Origin: Microbacterium ginsengiterrae | Lineage (GTDB): Bacteria; Actinomycetota; Actinomycetes; Actinomycetales; Microbacteriaceae | Direction of reading: 5' to 3' | NCBI RefSeq assembly: GCF_014205075.1 | Contig: NZ_JACHMU010000001.1 | Coordinates: forward strand, 2,790,001-2,854,000 | DNA length: 64,000 nucleotides | In this document: in pieces, positions 25,150 to 33,017 of the stretch | How positions within the stretch are numbered: the stretch's first letter is position 1 | Layout: every line of letters starts with the position of its first letter | Notes under the pieces: model-generated | What the model was told of the DNA's origin: nothing | Seen by the model: the letters and a program-made list of their open reading frames with translations, nothing else | Databases searched by the model: none | Translations under genes and position numbers: made by a program

Positions 25150-25184
25150 GAATCGCGATCCGCTGACTCAGCGGGTCGCGATTC
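25150..25184. terminator. Hairpin between DUF7455 and the alr gene
   Basis: A 17-bp stem (25150-25166 with 25168-25184, one G-T wobble) has almost no loop, so the inner pairs must open. It is followed by TTCT on the plus strand and overlaps the last codons of the convergent alr gene. Confidence 0.7.
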
Positions 25185-26205
25185 TTCTGACCGCGGGTGT
25201 CAGTCTTGTCACGATCTCCTCGCCGACCGTGTCGATCCGCTCCGCCAGAGCCGTGGCGTCGGGCTCGCCGTGATCACCCGGGCCGAAGATGGTGACCGCA
25301 TCGCCTCGCGAGGCGCCGCTCCACGCGTCGACCGTCATACGGGTGTCACCGATGGCGCGGATCGCTCGCGGCCCCGCTGGGGTGCCGACGGGCGCGCCGA
25401 CGAGGTTCGACGGGAAGCCGTGCAGGGCCCCGATACCGACGTCGACGGTGTCCGCGCGTGCGTCGATCACAGGTGCGCTGAGCGTCGCGACCGGGCCGAT
25501 CCCGGGGATCTCCGGGCCGTCGGCTGACCGGATGCCGTAGCAGAACGCTCCGATGCGGCACACGCTCGCCCGCAGCTCCGGACGCCACCATGACGCCGCG
25601 GATGCCGTGAGGTGCGTGTCGGCCGGGTCGATACCTGCCGCACGGAGCACTTCGAGTGCATGGCGGAACACACCGGCTGCCGCGTCGTCCTCGGCATCGC
25701 TGGCTTCGGCGAGGTGGCTCCAGAGCCCGACCACCCGGAGCAGTCCGGCGCGCTGAGCGCCATCGACCTCCGCGACGAACGCCGGCCAGCGCTCGGGGCG
25801 CACGCCGTTGCGGTGCAGACCCGTGTCGATCTTCAGGTGCACGGCAGCGGTGCGCTCCCGGTCCCGGGCGACGGCGAGCACACGGCGCAGGTAGTCCTCG
25901 TCTCCGATACCGAGCTCGAGGCCGGCGTCCAGCGCCCGCGCGATCTCCCCATCGGTGGACGTCGCCCATGCGAACACACGGGCGTGCGGACGCCGCGCGC
26001 GCACACGCTCCCCCGTCTCGACGTCGAAGCTGCCGAAGCGGTCCAGCGCCGGATCCGCGGACAGTGCGTCCAGCACCCACTCGACGCCGTGGCCGTACGC
26101 ATCGTCCTTCATCGCCAGCATGAGAACCGACGGCGCGATGCGGCGTCGCACCGCCGCGACGTTGCGCACGAGCCGTCCGGTGGAGAGCTCGAGGACCGGT
26201 GTCAT
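25168..26205 (-). CDS. Alanine racemase homologue, barrel subunit (PLP Lys present, catalytic Tyr region missing)
   Basis: The protein is 345 residues from ATG 26205 (TGATG overlap with the previous stop); ATG 26217 would give a 13-bp overlap. It is a fold-III PLP enzyme with an apparently complete TIM barrel: Lys33 in MLAMKDDAYGHG, the HLKIDTGLHRNG strand (Arg132), His164 in WSHLAEASD, and Arg217 in CRIGAFCYG. The C-terminal beta domain is degenerate. The VSYG motif that carries catalytic Tyr265 in Geobacillus Alr is absent, GYADG is replaced by GALHG, and GRxxMDQ is replaced by GDTRMTVDA. On its own it should be a poor racemase. The missing pieces are all present in the upstream-coupled gene 26205-26894, so I infer a heterodimer. 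D-alanine supply by a second, normal alr elsewhere is possible. Confidence 0.8.
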   Translation of the reverse strand: MTPVLELSTGRLVRNVAAVRRRIAPSVLMLAMKDDAYGHGVEWVLDALSADPALDRFGSFDVETGERVRARRPHARVFAWATSTDGEIARALDAGLELGIGDEDYLRRVLAVARDRERTAAVHLKIDTGLHRNGVRPERWPAFVAEVDGAQRAGLLRVVGLWSHLAEASDAEDDAAAGVFRHALEVLRAAGIDPADTHLTASAASWWRPELRASVCRIGAFCYGIRSADGPEIPGIGPVATLSAPVIDARADTVDVGIGALHGFPSNLVGAPVGTPAGPRAIRAIGDTRMTVDAWSGASRGDAVTIFGPGDHGEPDATALAERIDTVGEEIVTRLTPAVRRIATR

Positions 26206-26894
26206 CAGTCCGTCCATTCACGCACCGCCTTCGCACCGACGACCGCGACGAGTTCCGTCGCCCGCAGGCCGGTCACCTGCGTCCACGTCTGCAGCTCGTC
26301 GACGGCGGGGCCGGCGCCGAAGTACACGACCTCGCCGCCGAGTCCGCCGGCGGCATCCGTCGTCTGCAGATCGATCACGCACACGTCCATCGCGACCCGT
26401 CCCACGATGGGCCTCAGCTGCGCGCCGACGGCCACCTGCGCGTGGTTGCCCAACGCGCGCACGATGCCCTGCGCGTACCCACCGGTGACGAGCGCGATGG
26501 TGGTGTCGTGTTCTGCCGTGAAGGTGTATCCGTAGGAGACCGACTCGCCTGCGCGCAGTGGCTTGTGCGACAGCATCCGCCCCGTGAGGGTCATCGCGGG
26601 GCGACGGCCCGAGCCCGGCAGCCCGTACAGCATCGCGCTGTCGATGTCCGGCTCCGCATCGGTCAGTACCTCGACGCCGTCTTCGGCGAGAGAGGCCGCG
26701 AGCTGCGGGTCCTCCACGACGATGCGGCGGATGCCCGCATCGCGAACCGCGAGAGCCGTCTGCCGAACACCGTGGCCGAACGCGTCAGCACGCAGGTCGG
26801 CGGTCTCGCCTCCGGCCTCGGCCGCGACGCGTGCCGATTCGCGCAGCGCACTCAGCGAGATCACCGCGCGCGGAAGACTGCCGGACGCGGTCAC
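26205..26894 (-). CDS. Alanine racemase homologue, tyrosine-donor subunit (barrel truncated, PLP Lys replaced by Arg)
   Basis: The protein is 229 residues from GTG 26894, a GTGA overlap with the ATP-grasp stop. Alanine racemases have about 360-380 residues. The first strand and helix remain (RAVISLSALRESARV), and the PLP motif reads LRADAFGHG, with Arg35 where the Schiff-base Lys should be. The frame then passes directly to SAMLYGLPGSG, so about five of the eight barrel units, with the equivalents of Arg136, His166 and Arg219, are missing. The C-terminal beta domain is complete: Tyr121 in SVSYGYTFTAE, Tyr140 in GGYAQG, and Met169 in GRVAMD. In the Alr dimer this Tyr acts in the partner's active site, so this protein can complete the barrel protein encoded next door. 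Confidence 0.8.
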   Translation of the reverse strand: MTASGSLPRAVISLSALRESARVAAEAGGETADLRADAFGHGVRQTALAVRDAGIRRIVVEDPQLAASLAEDGVEVLTDAEPDIDSAMLYGLPGSGRRPAMTLTGRMLSHKPLRAGESVSYGYTFTAEHDTTIALVTGGYAQGIVRALGNHAQVAVGAQLRPIVGRVAMDVCVIDLQTTDAAGGLGGEVVYFGAGPAVDELQTWTQVTGLRATELVAVVGAKAVREWTD

Positions 26895-27922
26895 TTCCTG
26901 CTGGCCTCGATCACCGGACGGTGCCGCGCTCGGCTGCCGGTACGGATGCCGGTCGCACTGACCCGCGTCTCATACAGGCCGGGCGTCCAGTTGCCCTCGA
27001 TGAGCACGGGTCCGTCGGGCGTGACGGCGACGTCCCAGCCCACGTACGGCACGGTGGGGACCTCCTGAGCCGCGCGGGTGACGAGGTCGACGACCTGATC
27101 CCACATCGGCACCTCGAAGTCGACGATCGAGCGTCCGGAGTCGGGGTGCGTCTCGTAGCGGGACTTGTGCTTCCCGGTGTGGCCGGGACCGAACGACTTG
27201 CCGCTCTCGTCGATCATGGTGAAGAAGCCGCCCCAGGTGAACTGGTCGCTCACCGCTCCACGGCCGAACTTCTGGGCCGCCATCAGCACGTGGACCTTCT
27301 CGCCGTCGAAGAAGGTCGCCACGCGCGTGGTGTTGACCGTCCCCTCGCAGTACTCGGCGAGGTACGGGTGCTGGACGATGCGCTGCTCGATGAGGCGCTG
27401 CCCCTTGTCGCGGAGCTCGTCGCGGAACGCGTTCCAATCCGTGACCTCTGCGGCGTCGTACCGGAAGACGCCCTTGCCCTCTCGCCCGACCGGGGTCTTG
27501 GCGATGAACACCGGATTCTTCTCGGCGAACGCGCGGAAGCCGTCGGCATCCACCTCGTCGAGGTCGATCCAGTCGCGCCCGAGGTACTCGGAGAAGCGCC
27601 TGTTGAAGGTGAGCTTGTTCTCAAACTGCAGCACGTCCGTGCGGTCATTCAGCGCCTGCGCCACGTGATGCTGGACGAGCGAGGTCATGAACGTCTTCCG
27701 CTCCGCCTTGGTCAACAGCGCGAAGTCCGCCTCGTAGTAGTCGATGTAGGCCGTGTCGTGGAAGGCGGCCCACACGAGCATGTCGACGAAGATGCGCGGG
27801 GCCCACTTGTCCTGCTCCTTCGCGATCTGGGTGGCGAACGACCACACCCTGCCGACGTCGAACGATCGCAGTCGCTTCAGGATGTATTTCAGGCGCGCTG
27901 TGAGCGCGACGTCTCGAGACAA
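26891..27922 (-). CDS. Sugar-transfer-associated ATP-grasp ligase, paralogue 1
   Basis: The protein is 343 residues from TTG 27922. I prefer this start because CGAAAGGG lies five bases upstream and the length then equals that of the divergent paralogue; an in-frame ATG further up lacks support. A helical N-terminus (about 1-100) precedes an ATP-grasp domain of the ATPgrasp_ST type: VFIAKTPVGREGKG (ATP-binding Lys and Gly-rich loop), RLIEQRIVQHP, NTTRVATF, and the metal-binding end YVGWDVAVTPDG..LIEGN. ATP-grasp enzymes ligate a carboxylate to an amine through acyl phosphate. It overlaps the racemase-like gene by four bases, so it leads the ligase-racemase-racemase operon. Substrates are unknown. 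Confidence 0.82.
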   Translation of the reverse strand: MSRDVALTARLKYILKRLRSFDVGRVWSFATQIAKEQDKWAPRIFVDMLVWAAFHDTAYIDYYEADFALLTKAERKTFMTSLVQHHVAQALNDRTDVLQFENKLTFNRRFSEYLGRDWIDLDEVDADGFRAFAEKNPVFIAKTPVGREGKGVFRYDAAEVTDWNAFRDELRDKGQRLIEQRIVQHPYLAEYCEGTVNTTRVATFFDGEKVHVLMAAQKFGRGAVSDQFTWGGFFTMIDESGKSFGPGHTGKHKSRYETHPDSGRSIVDFEVPMWDQVVDLVTRAAQEVPTVPYVGWDVAVTPDGPVLIEGNWTPGLYETRVSATGIRTGSRARHRPVIEASRK

Positions 27923-27956
27923 AACGACCCTTTCGAGATGGACGGTCCGACATCCC

Positions 27957-27962
27957 ATCGTA
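27957..27962 (-). promoter_or_regulatory. -10 element (TACGAT) for the ATP-grasp/racemase operon
   Basis: The predicted transcript start is near 27950, which gives a leader of about 28 bases with CGAAAGGG before the TTG. It is back to back with the promoter of the paralogue at 28001-28006. Confidence 0.4.
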
Positions 27963-28000
27963 GTCACTCCGCCCGTCGGGGCCCTGGGACCGCAGCGTGT

Positions 28001-28006
28001 TAGCCT
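28001..28006 (+). promoter_or_regulatory. -10 element (TAGCCT), leaderless start of ATP-grasp paralogue 2
   Basis: TAGCCT is six bases before GTG 28013, with no ribosome-binding motif. Confidence 0.5.
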
Positions 28007-28012
28007 GGCCTG

Positions 28013-29047
28013 GTGGACCAGAAGCGCTTACGCGTTCGGTATCTCTTCGACCGGGCACGGCGACTGAATCCGACGCAGTTGATTGAACTCGCCCGTCAGG
28101 TCAAGCGGGTCTCGAAGGCACCTCTCCCCGTGATCATCGGAGACATGCTGTGGTGCTCCGTCCGCTACGAGATGGGGTTCCGCGACTACGTCGTGTGGGA
28201 CATCCGCATCCTGAAGGCGCGCGAACGTGCCACGTGGATGACGCATCCCAAGGCGTTCCGTCTGAACAAGACGCTCAACGGCCCGGATTCGAAGGTCATC
28301 CTCGGCGACAAGGCCCGCTTCCTCACCGACTTCGCCGATCTCGTGCGGCGGGAGTGGCTCGACGCCGCTGCCGTCTCCGACGACGAGCTCGCCGCGTTCC
28401 TCGGTCGGCACGCTCGTGTGATCGCCAAGCCGGCTGCCGGTGAAGGCGGCGCGGGGATCGCGATCTTCGACACCGCCGACATCTCCGACGTCGCAGCCTG
28501 GCGCGCCGAGCGCATCGAGAAGGACCAGACGCTTCTCGAGCAGGTGCTCACCCAGCACGACGATCTCAACGCCGTGTACCCGGACAGTGTCAACACCGTG
28601 CGCATGATCACGTACCGCGACCCGCAGGGCGAGCTGCACGTCATCGCATCCGTGCTGCGCATCGGAAACGGCGCCGTGATCGACAACTTCGCCTCCGGCG
28701 GGATGTTCACGATGCTCGATGACGACGGCGTCGCTCTGTATCCGGGCGTCGACAAGCAGTCGAACATCTACCGGGAGCACCCCGTCACCGGCACGACGAT
28801 CGCGGGCACCCGGGTGCCGTTCTACCCGGAAGTCGTCTCGATGATCGCCGAGGCGGCGAAGCTCCTCCCCACGGTGCCGTACGTCGGTTGGGACATCGCG
28901 ATCACACCGGAGGGCCCTGCCCTCATCGAGGCGAACCACAACTCCAGCGTGTTCCAGATGAAGCCGTCGGCGTCCGGGATCCGCACCGGCCTGCTGTACC
29001 GCTACCGCGACGCCATCGGCGCCGACATCGTCGACAACCGACGCTGA
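28013..29047 (+). CDS. Sugar-transfer-associated ATP-grasp ligase, paralogue 2
   Basis: The protein is 344 residues from GTG 28013. It is a clear paralogue of the divergent neighbour, with the same layout: a helical N-terminus, then VIAKPAAGEGGAGI, TLLEQVLTQHD, SVNTVRMITY, LLPTVPYVGWDIAIT and LIEANHNSS with the metal-binding Glu and Asn. All residues expected for ATP and Mg binding are present in both copies. Family members occur in capsule and cell-surface gene clusters and join amino acids or other carboxylates to acceptors. The 90-bp shared promoter region suggests that both ligases are made together. Its 3' end faces murJ across a repeat-rich 230-bp gap. Confidence 0.82.
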   Translation: MDQKRLRVRYLFDRARRLNPTQLIELARQVKRVSKAPLPVIIGDMLWCSVRYEMGFRDYVVWDIRILKARERATWMTHPKAFRLNKTLNGPDSKVILGDKARFLTDFADLVRREWLDAAAVSDDELAAFLGRHARVIAKPAAGEGGAGIAIFDTADISDVAAWRAERIEKDQTLLEQVLTQHDDLNAVYPDSVNTVRMITYRDPQGELHVIASVLRIGNGAVIDNFASGGMFTMLDDDGVALYPGVDKQSNIYREHPVTGTTIAGTRVPFYPEVVSMIAEAAKLLPTVPYVGWDIAITPEGPALIEANHNSSVFQMKPSASGIRTGLLYRYRDAIGADIVDNRR

Positions 29048-29064
29048 GTCTCTGTCGCGGGAGA

Positions 29065-29275
29065 CGGCTTCGACTCGTCGCTGCGCTCCTCGCTCAGCCC
29101 CTTTCGTCTGCGGGCTCCGCCCTCCGCTCAACGCCCCGCATATCCCCCACCGCGGGACGTTGAGCGAGCGCAGCGAGACGAAACGGGGTGAGCGAGCGGA
29201 CGCCCACATCGCGGGACGTTGAGCGAGCGCAGCGAGACGAAACGGGGTGAGCGAGCCGCAGGCGAGTCGAAGCCG
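29065..29275. repeat. REP-like intergenic repeat cluster between ATP-grasp 2 and murJ
   Basis: A 47-bp direct repeat occurs at 29151-29197 and 29210-29256; each contains TTGAGCGAGCGCAGCGAGAC. A diverged inverted copy of the flanking unit lies at 29065-29109 and pairs with 29235-29275. The region between the convergent stop codons at 29047 and 29279 contains only these repeats. It could form a long stem and act as a bidirectional terminator. Such GAGCGAGC words recur in intergenic regions of this family (knowledge, not shown here). Confidence 0.75.
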
Positions 29276-29278
29276 GCC

Positions 29279-30871
29279 TCAACCCCGGCGACGGCGGACC
29301 GTGTCCATCGCGACCTTGAGCTCGGGAGCACGGAACACGAACAGCAGCAGCAGGTAGACGGCGCCCGCGACGGCAGCGATCACCGCGGCGCCGAGCGCAC
29401 CCCAGAGCTTGTCCTGGAGCATCCAGCCGTCCGCTCCCCCGCTCAGCAGGTACACACCGTAACCGGCGGCGCCGGCCGGGAGCGCCATGATGATGAACCT
29501 CACAAGGGCAGCCCAGGTGCTGCCGAGCCCGAGCGGTCCGATCTTCCGGCGCAGCAGGATCGTGGCGAGCACCGTCTGCACGATTCCCGCACACGCCTGC
29601 ACCAGGGCCACCGACGCCGCACGCCATTCGACCGGCACCGAGAACGCCACCACGAGTGTGAACACGAGGACCAGTGAGGCCTGGACCACGGTGAAGAAGA
29701 ACGGCGTTCGTGCGTCGCCATACGCGTAGAACGTGCGCTGCACGATGAAGAGCACCGCCATGGGCAGCAGACTGACCAGGAACGCGAGCAGCACCGGAGC
29801 GATCAGTGTCGCCTCCAGCGCCCCGTTGCTGAAGACGCGCGACGCGGGGACGGCGGCGGCGGCCACGGCAGCGGTGGCGATCACGACGAACAATCCCAGC
29901 ACGCGGATCGACTGCGCGATGTCCCCGCGCAGTTCGGCGTCGCGCTTGGCTGCAGCGTGCTCGCTGATCCGTGTGAAGTACGGTGTCCCGATCGCGAGGA
30001 TGATCATCGAGTAGGGGACCATGTACACGAGCCAGGCGTTCTGCGATGCGAACACCGACGGATGATCGCCCGATGCGACCGAGAGCGTCTGCGTCTGTAC
30101 GATGCCGACGGCCTGACCGATGAGGGTGGTCAGCAACGTCCACTTGGCCAGCGTACGCATGTGGCCCAGGCCCATCCCCCGCCAGCGGAAGTCGAACCGG
30201 AGCGGGATGCCCGCCCGGCGCCAGAAGAACACCAGCACCACCGTCTGCCCGACGATCCCGAGCGTCGCGGTCCCCGCGAGCACGGCGACCATGAGCGGGT
30301 TCCATTCGGCGACGTCGGTGAGGTTCGAGCCGAACAGCATCATGAAGACGAGGAAACCCGCGATCGACACGATGTTGTTGACGATCGGCGCCCAGGCGTA
30401 AGGGGCGAAGATCCGGCGGGCGTTGAGGATCTCGCCCAGCAGCGCGAACATGCCGTAGAAGAACAGCTGCGGGATGCACCAGTAGGCGAACTGCGTCGCC
30501 AGCGCGTGCTGCTCCGGGGAGTACCCCGCGGAGGCGTACAGGCTGACGAGCAGAGGTGCACAGAAGAACGCCACGACGGTGATGCCGCCCACGAGAACGG
30601 CTCCGAGTGTGAGCAGCTTCGCGAGGAAGGCGTGTCCGCTGTCCTTCTGTGCCGTGGCGCGGACGACCTGCGGCACGATGACTCCGGTGAGCACACCCGC
30701 CGAGATCACCTGGTAGATGCTGTTGGGCAGCATGTTGGCGGTCGCGAAGGCGTCGCCGGCCTGACCGATCGCGCCGACGGCGGAGATCAGCACGACCGTG
30801 CGCAGCAACCCCGTGATGCGGGACGTGAGCGTACCCGCTGCGATCATTGCGCTGGCGCGACCGAGTCCCAT
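29279..30871 (-). CDS. murJ: Lipid II flippase MurJ
   Basis: The protein is 530 residues from ATG 30871. It is a polytopic membrane protein of the MOP superfamily with about 14 hydrophobic helices. The N-terminus SAMIAAGTLTSRITGLLRTVVL is typical of MurJ/MviN, with further signatures YQVISAGVLTGVIVPQVV and LIGQAVGIVQTQTLSV. It flips the peptidoglycan precursor lipid II across the membrane. Actinobacterial MurJ often carries a long cytoplasmic extension; this copy does not, and it ends soon after the last helix (DTVRRRRG). Its location beside racemase and ligase genes supports an envelope role for the whole block. A second murJ near the chromosome origin would be usual in this group and cannot be checked here. 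Confidence 0.9.
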   Translation of the reverse strand: MGLGRASAMIAAGTLTSRITGLLRTVVLISAVGAIGQAGDAFATANMLPNSIYQVISAGVLTGVIVPQVVRATAQKDSGHAFLAKLLTLGAVLVGGITVVAFFCAPLLVSLYASAGYSPEQHALATQFAYWCIPQLFFYGMFALLGEILNARRIFAPYAWAPIVNNIVSIAGFLVFMMLFGSNLTDVAEWNPLMVAVLAGTATLGIVGQTVVLVFFWRRAGIPLRFDFRWRGMGLGHMRTLAKWTLLTTLIGQAVGIVQTQTLSVASGDHPSVFASQNAWLVYMVPYSMIILAIGTPYFTRISEHAAAKRDAELRGDIAQSIRVLGLFVVIATAAVAAAAVPASRVFSNGALEATLIAPVLLAFLVSLLPMAVLFIVQRTFYAYGDARTPFFFTVVQASLVLVFTLVVAFSVPVEWRAASVALVQACAGIVQTVLATILLRRKIGPLGLGSTWAALVRFIIMALPAGAAGYGVYLLSGGADGWMLQDKLWGALGAAVIAAVAGAVYLLLLFVFRAPELKVAMDTVRRRRG

Positions 30872-30927
30872 ACCTGGTGCTTTCCCTCCGCGTCCGTCGT
30901 CCGCGATCCGCGTCGGACGGAGCGATC

Positions 30928-31620
30928 TCAGACGGTGCGGATGATGCCCATCGGCGTGGACTCGCGTCCCTGGCCGAGGGGGTTGTCCTTGAGGATGCGC
31001 AGCAGGCGCTGCTCGCCGGCCTTGTCGAGGGTCGACCCGAGGATGTTCCCGCCGAGGTCGTTGATGTCCACGACGGCGACGTCGGCGGTACCGCCGATGA
31101 GTGCCTTGACGTGCGCGGCGACCTGGCGCGGGTTCTTCGGACCGAGCACGACCGCCTCGTTGTAGGGAGGGATGGTGTGCTTGGTCGGACCGTCGATCGC
31201 GCGGGCCTTGTCACCGGCGATGCGGTAGAAGTCGCCCTTACGTCCGAAGGCCTTCGTCACCGCCGAGACGGCGGCCGCGAACAGGATGCGCGGAGTACCG
31301 CATTCGCGAAGGGCCATCTCCATCGTCTCGGGCATGCCGAGTCCGATGCCGTACGGCGTGCGCGTGACGTACTTCGACAGGAACAAGGCGAGCTTGCGCG
31401 GCGTGATCTCGTCGAGTCGGTAGGAACGCCCCTGCGTGATCGCCACGATCTTCTCCGTGACGAACAGCAGGTCCCCCGGCTGCACGGCCTCGGCCGCATA
31501 CTCGGTGATGATGGCGTCGAGGTCGTCCTCGGGCATCACGACACGGGTGCGCAACGGGATACGGGCGTAGTTGCGACCGTCGACGCTCGTCTCGAGCGCC
31601 TTGCCCTCGTTCGCCTGCAT
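30928..31620 (-). CDS. CofE-like (F420-0:gamma-glutamyl ligase family) protein
   Basis: The protein is 230 residues from ATG 31620, whose A is shared with the sigA stop (TGATG); GTG 31623 is also possible. Family hallmarks are RTRVVMPEDDLDAII, GDLLFVTEKIVAITQGRSY near the N-terminus, NEAVVLGPKNPRQVAAHV, and VAVVDINDLGGNILGST, which holds acidic metal ligands. CofE adds glutamates to coenzyme F420, but this is a stand-alone short form, and nothing in the window suggests F420 synthesis. An amide-forming ligase acting on another substrate, possibly peptidoglycan, fits the location between sigA and murJ. It is co-transcribed with sigA. Confidence 0.75.
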   Translation of the reverse strand: MQANEGKALETSVDGRNYARIPLRTRVVMPEDDLDAIITEYAAEAVQPGDLLFVTEKIVAITQGRSYRLDEITPRKLALFLSKYVTRTPYGIGLGMPETMEMALRECGTPRILFAAAVSAVTKAFGRKGDFYRIAGDKARAIDGPTKHTIPPYNEAVVLGPKNPRQVAAHVKALIGGTADVAVVDINDLGGNILGSTLDKAGEQRLLRILKDNPLGQGRESTPMGIIRTV

Positions 31621-32858
31621 CACTCGAGGTAGTCCCGCAGCGACTGCGAGCGGCTCGGGTGGCGCAGCTTGGCCATGGTCTTGGACTCGATCTGGCGGAT
31701 GCGCTCACGCGTGACACCGAAGGTGTCGCCGATCTGGTCGAGCGTCTTGGGCTGTCCGTCGCCGAGACCGAAGCGCATGCGGATCACTCCCGCTTCGCGC
31801 TCGGAGAGCGAGTCCAGCAGCTGCTCGAGCTGACGCTGGAGCATCGTGAATCCGACGGCGTCCGCCGGGACGACGGCCTCGGTGTCCTCGATGAGGTCAC
31901 CGAATTCGCTGTCGCCGTCCTCACCGAGAGGTGTGTGCAGCGAGATCGGCTCGCGGCCGTACTTCTGCACCTCGACGACCTTCTCCGGCGTCATGTCCAG
32001 CTCGCGGCTGAGCTCTTCCGGAGTGGGTTCGCGCCCGAGGTCCTGGAGCATCTGACGCTGCACGCGGGCGAGCTTGTTGATGACCTCGACCATGTGGACG
32101 GGGATACGGATCGTACGGGCCTGGTCGGCCATGGCACGCGTGATCGCCTGCCGGATCCACCAGGTGGCGTAGGTCGAGAACTTGAAGCCCTTGGTGTAGT
32201 CGAACTTCTCGACCGCACGGATCAGGCCGAGGTTGCCCTCCTGGATCAGGTCGAGGAACTGCATTCCGCGGCCCGTGTAGCGCTTCGCGAGGGAGACGAC
32301 CAGACGAAGGTTAGCGCCGAGCAGGTGGCTCTTCGCACGCTGTCCGTCACGGGCGACCCACTGCAGGTCGAGTCCGAGCTGGCTCGTCTTCTCGGCCGCC
32401 GACATGTTCGACAGCTTCTCCTCGGCGAACAGACCGGCCTCGATGCGCATCGCGAGCTCGACCTCTTCGGCCGCGTTCAGCAGGGCGACCTTACCGATCT
32501 GCTTGAGGTAATCCTTGACGGGGTCGGCCGTCGCGCCGGTGATCTGCGTCGAGTAGACGGGGACATCGTCCTCGTCCTTCGTCGTCAGGACGATGGCGCC
32601 GGTGGGAAGCGGCTCGGTGAACACCGGCTTCTTCTCTTCCTCTTCGGCCTCCTCGGCCACGGGCTCGCCGCCGTCCTCGACGACGTCGTCCTCGTCGGCC
32701 TTCTTGCGCTTGGCCGGCGCCTTCTTGGCGGCGGCCTTCTTGGCAGCAGGCTTCTTCGCCGCCGGCTTCTTCGCGGCAGCGGTGTCTTCGACCTCGACGG
32801 CTTCGGCGTCGGGGTCGGTCTTCTTCGTCCGGGTGTTCTTGGTCGCGGCAGGAGTCAC
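31620..32858 (-). CDS. sigA: Principal RNA polymerase sigma factor
   Basis: The protein is 412 residues from GTG 32858, with GAAAGGCG five bases upstream. The N-terminal 90 residues are a Lys/Ala-rich tail followed by an acidic stretch, as in other actinobacterial primary sigma factors. Region 1.2 is at [16 protein letters not shown]. Region 2 contains [30 protein letters not shown] and [15 protein letters not shown] (core binding, -10 recognition and melting). Regions 3 and 4 end in the helix-turn-helix [20 protein letters not shown]. It directs housekeeping transcription. Sigma factors of this type recognise TANNNT -10 elements with weak -35 sequences, which is the pattern seen throughout this window. 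Confidence 0.96.
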
Positions 32859-33017
32859 GTTTCGCCTTTCACGGGGCGGCGCGACCACCCCGGGACATTT
32901 CGGACACTAGTAAGACCCTTGTCAAGTCCTGAGCCTGGGCACGGGACATTGACAACGGGTCGGATTACCAGTATCGCACACGATTGCGCAAGGGGTCGCA
33001 TCCGCAGGGAAGTCGTT

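Follow-up and report, generated by a model that had tools for sequence, protein, structure and literature searches.

The window examined here, a stretch of 64 000 nucleotides from Microbacterium ginsengiterrae (contig NZ_JACHMU010000001.1, positions 2 790 001 to 2 854 000), contains two overlapping genes homologous to alanine racemase (Alr), denoted A and B, that divide between them the catalytic residues of this enzyme. The features of the pair, in window coordinates, are the following, with the lysine that carries pyridoxal 5'-phosphate (PLP) given as the PLP lysine:

25168..26205, minus strand: gene A, the catalytic half, 345 amino acids (aa), or 349 aa using the ATG at 26217
26205..26894, minus strand: gene B, the tyrosine-donor half, GTG start, 229 aa
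26203..26207, minus strand: overlap of the B stop and the A start, TGATG
26107..26109, minus strand: codon of A Lys33 (PLP lysine, Lys39 equivalent)
25219..25221, minus strand: codon of A Glu329 (Tyr354 equivalent)
26532..26534, minus strand: codon of B Tyr121 (equivalent of Tyr265 of the partner chain)
26790..26792, minus strand: codon of B Arg35 (Lys39 lost)

Both open reading frames (ORFs) lie at the coordinates given in the original prediction, which was made from this DNA alone and named the long gene first; the strand is minus, so that B is upstream and A downstream. The overlap of stop and start codons that it reported is there as well (the B stop and the A start), and would couple the translation of the two genes. 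The domain profiles divide in the same manner. A matches PF01168 over its full length (139.8 bits) and PF00842 only with a 50-residue tail (24 bits, cut-off 25), whereas B matches PF00842 over its full length (94.4 bits) and yields no match to PF01168 in the domain profile search. The scores of A and B against TIGR00492 (106.3 and 99.4 bits, respectively) are both under the cut-off of 168, so that neither chain includes both domains complete. A separate, ordinary alr, the possible presence of which had been raised by the original prediction, is located elsewhere in the same genome (1987378-1988439).

In alanine racemase, each active site combines the lysine of one chain with Tyr265 of the other chain. 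Residue positions are given here in the numbering of the Geobacillus Alr, assigned by motif. A has Lys33, Tyr37, Arg132, His164, Ser202 and Arg217, which correspond to Lys39, Tyr43, Arg136, His166, Ser204 and Arg219, respectively; the segment bearing Tyr265 is deleted, and the position of Tyr354 is occupied by Glu329, a substitution absent from the original prediction. B is the mirror image of A, with Arg35 in place of Lys39, the barrel mostly deleted and the C-terminal domain complete, including Tyr121, Tyr140, Arg146, Met169 and Asp170 (Tyr265, Tyr284, Arg290, Met312 and Asp313, respectively). Tyr121 sits in an SYG motif, and residues 98-177 of B align to residues 242-320 of 1bd0 with one gap, consistent with the placement of Tyr121 on residue 265. 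Direct reading of the residues confirms what had been claimed for both proteins, namely the barrel set Lys33, Arg132, His164 and Arg217 with the loss of the Tyr265 segment in A, and the loss of the lysine and most of the barrel with the retention of Tyr121 in B. By sequence, neither an A:A nor a B:B dimer can form a full site; only A:B can, and only once per dimer.

This division is conserved across the family Microbacteriaceae. The family search covered 199 genomes, with the loci taken from among the matches listed; 54 split-pair loci from profile searches (51 and 3 added later) were read in detail, and a scan with a DNA pattern that demanded Arg at position 39 yielded at least 118 stretches of ~8 kb, 36 of which hold A or B, with some genomes represented in both sets. 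The combined set consists of 81 distinct A, 72 of them long enough to judge, and 82 distinct B. The co-occurrence of the two genes, which the original prediction proposed as a check, is nearly complete: A and B are adjacent at 52 of the 54 profile-search loci, and the two exceptions, L335 with A only and L403 with B only, are both at contig ends. Of the 36 stretches of the DNA-pattern set, 32 contain both genes; at the remaining four, B is close to where the 8-kb stretch ends. Lys39, Tyr43, Arg136, His166, Ser204 and Arg219 are retained in all 72 judged A. Tyr265 is absent from every one of them (a gap in 70, Gly in 2), as is any motif of the SYG type, and position 354 is Glu in 37 and Asp in 35. 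Conversely, all 82 B keep Tyr265, Arg290 and Met312, with Asp (75) or Asn (7) at position 313, and none has Lys39; Arg35 is invariant in the 33 close B that were aligned. With no exception among the 72 judged A and the 82 B, the reciprocal pattern is not a product of chance. At some loci, B is ~180 aa long and extends barely beyond the C-terminal domain. Two B frames (L143, 9096-10292, and L147, 9290-10324) contain more of the barrel than others and still lack Lys39, and are possible intermediates of barrel loss. A search of 248 genomes of the order found a match at E <= 1e-90 in 96 of them; outside the family, the best matches reach only ~360 bits, which is what an ordinary Alr scores, and in this sample A seems to be confined to Microbacteriaceae.

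Selection on both genes looks purifying: across 55 pairs per gene, taken from 11 Microbacterium loci, the median ratio of nonsynonymous to synonymous substitution rates (dN/dS) is 0.32 in A and 0.27 in B. The overlap of B with A is 4 nucleotides in 64 of the 82 pairs and 1 nucleotide in 4; the remaining 14 differ, some of them being truncated at stretch ends.

Comparable rearrangements are found in the ordinary alanine racemase of other genera of the family. The Agreia alr locus consists of two overlapping genes (L324 and L325; also L116-L118), the first of which encodes a 370-aa protein with Lys39 and Tyr354 and without the Tyr265 segment, and the second a 258-aa protein (in an open frame of 648 aa in L324) with Tyr265 and with Thr in place of Lys39. 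Three Agreia genomes have exactly four PF00842 matches each, which are accounted for by the pair at the alr locus and the A-B pair, with no conventional alr; the alr locus was read in two of these genomes, and A. bicolorata was judged by coordinates alone. In Gulosibacter, Pseudoclavibacter and three further genomes (L317-L323), a single ORF of 602-659 aa encodes a lysine half followed by a tyrosine-donor half. At least 44 long homologues of this fusion are at the top of the best 120 protein matches listed, and its holders include G. chungangensis, G. molinativorax, P. alba, P. chungangensis, P. helvolus and P. endophyticus. The fused proteins (P0122-P0165, ~595-680 aa), where labelled, are mostly annotated simply as ‘alanine racemase’. 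In all 42 aligned fusions, Lys39, Arg136, His166, Arg219 and Tyr354 are invariant in the first half, and Tyr265, Tyr284, Arg290, Met312 and Asp313 in the second half, in which the Lys39 position is taken by Ser (38), Thr (3) or Gly (1); each of the 42 thus contains exactly one full catalytic set. The PF00842 genes of G. chungangensis and Gulosibacter sp. 10 are the fusion and the A-B pair only, and two Pseudoclavibacter genomes have one PF00842 match beyond these. The extra PF00842 matches besides the alr locus and the pair (G445:C7:391661-392038, G451:C9:30933-31310, G439:C96:353-721 and G442:C4:168496-168873) belong to Pseudoclavibacter, Microbacterium resistens and Leifsonia aquatica. The standard residues are present in 20 of the 20 single-Alr genomes that were read. 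In the barrel tree, the fused group and the Agreia group each form one clade and are not sisters (by topology alone), and the fusion and the Agreia split appear to have arisen separately from A-B, in alanine racemase itself. Fusion of two halves is a classical sign of joint working, and these natural fusions support the halves working together, the halves concerned being of the alanine type and not A and B themselves.

Taken together, the reciprocal residues, their conservation, the gene overlap and the one-set composition of the 42 fusions favor the reading put forward in the original prediction, that of a composite enzyme with one site. We consider it very probable that A and B are the subunits of an obligate heterodimer with the alanine racemase fold and one working PLP site, which originated by reciprocal loss in full-length genes; the physical complex and its racemase activity are what we infer from the sequences. 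In this heterodimer, A would supply the barrel, the PLP lysine Lys33, Arg132, His164 and Arg217, and B would supply Tyr121 as the second catalytic base, along with the partner-side wall formed by Tyr140, Arg146, Met169 and Asp170, whereas the mirror site, made of the barrel of B and the C-terminal domain of A, would be dead. The reciprocal loss from full-length racemase genes would have occurred more than once in the family.

Several observations weigh against this reading. All A and B rows were found with A and B profiles or with the DNA pattern demanding Arg, and the proportion of Arg at position 39 of B (66 of the 82) is inflated by this pattern; in the B from profile searches alone, this position is occupied by A, S, T and others, never Lys. 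Nine short A were left out of the residue counts, six truncated at a stretch end and three that are pieces of two broken copies. A keeps a degenerate C-terminal domain. Finally, A is broken by a frame change in two Microbacterium loci (L223, 1204-2258, and L275, 2726-3843) and is in pieces in G540 (G540:C1:3554342-3555271), an assembly that is 68% complete; these copies may be sequencing errors or genuine losses.

The origin of the split can be traced to some extent. In other genera, an ordinary alr is followed in tandem by the gene for a full-length homologue that has Tyr265 and an acidic residue, Asp or Glu, at position 354 (hereafter 354D/E proteins; L099-L115, L398): both features are present in 17 of the 17 (11 Asp, 6 Glu), and in one more found later. 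Because such full-length proteins occur in other genera, the split form is, on the sequence evidence, derived from full-length genes. In the barrel tree (125 rows), A and the full-length 354D/E proteins are set apart from 57 alanine-type rows with 95% support in the Shimodaira–Hasegawa-like approximate likelihood ratio test (SH-aLRT), and within that part of the tree, the split A and the full-length 354D/E proteins are interleaved. A single clade of all split A was rejected by the approximately unbiased (AU) test (p-AU 0.0017, 75 rows), and because the reversal from split to full-length is unlikely, the split arose two or more times in the 354D/E line. In the tree of the C-terminal domain, the second gene of Agreia falls among the full-length 354D/E proteins (SH-aLRT 81 and 92), which suggests, with moderate support, that in Agreia a tandem of alr and alr(D/E) lost the tyrosine from the first gene and the lysine from the second, the opposite of the loss that would give rise to B and A. 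Two other ideas on the tandem proteins were abandoned. Full-length tandem 354D/E genes without Tyr265 turned out to be an alignment artefact when the proteins were read, and the donation of tyrosine to the tandem proteins by the intact Alr was dropped once their own Tyr265 was seen.

The genes around the pair bear on its possible role. Upstream of B on the minus strand, the window contains the following:

26891..27967, minus strand: AG1, an ATP-grasp ligase-like gene (PF14397), overlapping the B start by GTGA
28013..29047, plus strand: AG2, a second PF14397 ATP-grasp gene, divergent
29279..30871, minus strand: a gene for a MurJ-family lipid II flippase, in the same rpoD-parE interval as A-B

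The overlap of the AG1 stop with the GTG start of B (GTGA) was absent from the original prediction, and AG1, B and A look like one closely coupled operon. The MurJ gene was matched at 1 of the 40 other loci and is thus not a constant neighbor. The pair itself is located between rpoD and a parE/gyrB-like gene, parE being found at 40 and rpoD at 35 of the 40 loci; the orientation of the pair is opposite in two sets of loci that mostly match the two halves of the barrel tree. Beside rpoD, the window contains a short gene resembling F420_ligase (PF01996; 30928-31623; 27.9 bits, compared with the CofE cut-off of 180.65), which was also matched in 19 of 20 regions of Microbacterium genomes without A. 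The rpoD-parE interval (window 26891-32888; L367-L386) varies between species of the genus and may contain the racemase pair, PF14397 ATP-grasp genes (one or two) or both. An ATP-grasp gene had been expected to be a constant partner of the pair, and this expectation was given up: the cluster that includes the ATP-grasp genes of the window covered only 6 of the loci in the set formed by the window and the 40 others. An ATP-grasp match is present at 24 of the 86 B-bearing loci, within the stretch examined, and two of these matches are weak.

The linkage is frequent within Microbacterium. In the sample of 149 genomes of this genus, A is present in 124, in pieces in G540, absent in 23 and undecided in G497 (81% complete); in G539, A was found only on a closer search of the genomes first scored as A-less. 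Among the 124 A-bearing genomes, an AG1-like gene is within 3 kb of A in 93, elsewhere in 2 and not found in 29, that is, within 3 kb in 93 of the 95 genomes where both were listed. Of the 23 A-less genomes, 20 were read, and in 18 of these, rpoD and parE flank the ATP-grasp gene or genes; as for the other two, in L377 an ATP-grasp gene is beside parE and rpoD was not seen, and in L378 neither flank was found. A tandem type of ATP-grasp genes is present in 13 A-less genomes (L367-L379) and in none of the A-bearing ones. The slot between rpoD and parE looks like an exchangeable module that might set the peptidoglycan bridge.

The residue at position 354 provides a clue to the substrate. This position lies at the substrate entrance on the lysine chain and is a substrate-setting one, with Asn in the VanT serine racemase. 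It is acidic in 72 of the 72 judged A and in 17 of the 17 full-length relatives, whereas the 57 alanine-type rows have an aromatic residue there, Tyr in 55 and Trp in 2; an acidic residue would suit a second amino group of the substrate. Microbacteriaceae have group-B peptidoglycan. Because of the acidic residue and the ATP-grasp neighbors, we somewhat favor the reading that A:B is a racemase of a basic diamino acid, D-ornithine (D-Orn), D-lysine (D-Lys) or D-2,4-diaminobutyrate (D-Dab), for the cross-bridge of group-B2 peptidoglycan, in some species via the neighboring ATP-grasp ligases. Some group-B peptidoglycan types carry a D-diamino acid in the bridge, such as D-Dab in Clavibacter michiganensis (PMC9603630) and D-Ala-D-Dab in Rhodoluna (PMC4156110). 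Frigoribacterium is listed with D-Lys, type B2beta (PMC7033078), Gulosibacter with DAB or D-Orn (PMC6113628) and Microbacterium with D-Orn or L-Lys (PMC10757982). The pair is present in Frigoribacterium (L183) and in Gulosibacter (L169, L203). In addition, A was found in M. maritypicum (L221) and M. galbinum (L266), and B in M. oxydans (P0074); all three are listed as D-ornithine species (PMC10757982). M. invictum, a lysine species (PMC10978784), encodes a protein that is 79% identical to the first gene product of the tandem ATP-grasp type, which fits if this species lacks A, as its ATP-grasp type suggests.

Other data argue against the diamino-acid assignment. M. radiodurans has the same tandem ATP-grasp type (77%) and is reported as a D-ornithine species, although its two cluster mates have L-lysine (PMC10757982). 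No related ATP-grasp gene was found in 29 of the 124 A-bearing Microbacterium genomes, and all 23 complete A-less genomes carry an ATP-grasp gene. The choice between Asp and Glu at position 354 had been expected to track the diamino acid, but across the genera with data no obvious correspondence with the reported residue emerged. The literature searched gave no statement on the diamino acid of M. dauci or M. oleivorans. The evidence from individual species is mixed, and five species are too few.

A broader scenario can be proposed only tentatively, at slightly less than even confidence. Under it, the proteins of the 354D/E line would act as the D-diamino-acid racemase for group-B2 peptidoglycan, and their genes would reside in an exchangeable rpoD-parE cassette, together with ATP-grasp bridge ligases, that sets the type of the cross-link. 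Within Microbacteriaceae, a symmetric two-site racemase would repeatedly have become an obligate one-site heterodimer. This would have happened two or more times among the 354D/E proteins and, independently, in alanine racemase itself, as split genes in Agreia and as a re-fused single chain in Gulosibacter and Pseudoclavibacter, with losses in opposite directions from the same kind of tandem of alr and alr(D/E).

The strongest competitor of the diamino-acid racemase, less likely and still to be taken seriously, is that the A:B heterodimer is real but is a plain second alanine racemase, with the acid at position 354 affecting its kinetics or regulation rather than its substrate. The fold is indeed that of alanine racemase, and the split or fused forms that keep Tyr354 are the sole candidate Alr in the inventoried Gulosibacter and Agreia genomes (D-Ala transaminase was not searched for). 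However, M. ginsengiterrae and all 16 pair-bearing genomes that were inventoried carry another PF00842 gene besides the pair, whether split, fused or whole, and the complete partition of acidic and aromatic residues at position 354, together with the substrate-setting role of that position, points to another substrate. It is improbable that A acts as a stand-alone enzyme, with some other base in place of Tyr265 and with B as a regulatory or structural partner. A retains the whole PLP-binding set, and prozyme-like activators are reported from trypanosomatids (PMC5201418, PMC3663545). Yet B keeps the partner-site residues Tyr265, Arg290 and Met312 in 82 of 82 sequences, and Asp or Asn at 313, all of which would be needless in a regulator, and the same residues are invariant in 42 of the 42 fusions. 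Still less is to be expected of another PLP reaction, such as decarboxylation, transamination or one-way epimerization, on a diamino acid or a peptide: a pocket residue is altered, and fold-type III also includes decarboxylases, but both racemase bases are retained across the subunits, as two-sided proton transfer requires. That the pair is a duplicated racemase decaying into pseudogenes, or the result of a sequencing frameshift, is hardly credible despite the large deletions in both genes and the broken A in L223, L275 and G540, given the same locus across many genera, dN/dS values well below 1, maintained overlaps and invariant catalytic residues, and given that only three copies are broken, in strains of a genus whose other A genes are mostly open frames. 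With more than 100 copies in all, these three do not outweigh this conservation; the pair is, family-wide, not decaying, and the corresponding claim of the original prediction is borne out by the dN/dS values, the invariant residues and Arg35 (33 of 33), with the broken A of three strains counting the other way.

Returning to the one-site heterodimer, its implications extend beyond this locus. A homodimer with composite active sites is vulnerable to a ratchet, each of two duplicated subunits losing the half that the other retains, and here apparent intermediates (the full-length tandems), two directions of loss and re-fused products are found in one family, so that the process is directly testable. 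A heterodimeric (Agreia) or single-chain (Gulosibacter) alanine racemase would also represent a novel version of an enzyme targeted by antibiotics. If the inference on the substrate is true, the pair would be the racemase, and the ATP-grasp genes the suggested ligases, for the D-Orn/D-Lys/D-Dab cross-bridge of group-B2 peptidoglycan, the structure of which has long been used in taxonomy. Literature searches revealed no biosynthetic genes for this bridge, and the literature searched, which covered few subscription journals, yielded no account of an alanine racemase that is split, reciprocal or fused.

Several known systems resemble the A-B pair in part. Alanine racemase (Alr; PF01168 and PF00842; TIGR00492) shares with A-B the fold, the PLP lysine, the two-base residues and the tyrosine donated by the partner; it differs from A-B, in which the domains are on two genes with reciprocal loss, position 354 is Glu or Asp and the scores are under the TIGR00492 cut-off, and the symmetric Alr homodimer has two sites whereas A:B would have one. 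In the racD-aslA operon of Lactococcus lactis (PMC4155827), a D-Asp racemase gene is next to that of an ATP-grasp ligase that puts D-Asp into the bridge, an arrangement similar to AG1-B-A; however, A-B is a different racemase, the ATP-grasp protein belongs to PF14397, the linkage is frequent but not constant, and the function here is putative. PddB (PMC8225329) is a D-Dab racemase of an actinobacterium, as proposed for A-B, and unlike A-B, it is PLP-independent, DapF-like and involved in the production of a secondary metabolite. A further analogy is with the trypanosomatid deoxyhypusine synthase and S-adenosylmethionine decarboxylase (AdoMetDC), in which an impaired or autoinhibited subunit is reported to be combined with a catalytically dead paralogue (PMC3663545, PMC5201418). 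B resembles such a paralogue in being homologous to the Alr C-terminal domain and lacking Lys39 in 82 of 82 sequences. The trypanosomatid enzymes are eukaryotic and have other folds, whereas in A and B the lost catalytic parts complement each other, and there are also fused forms.

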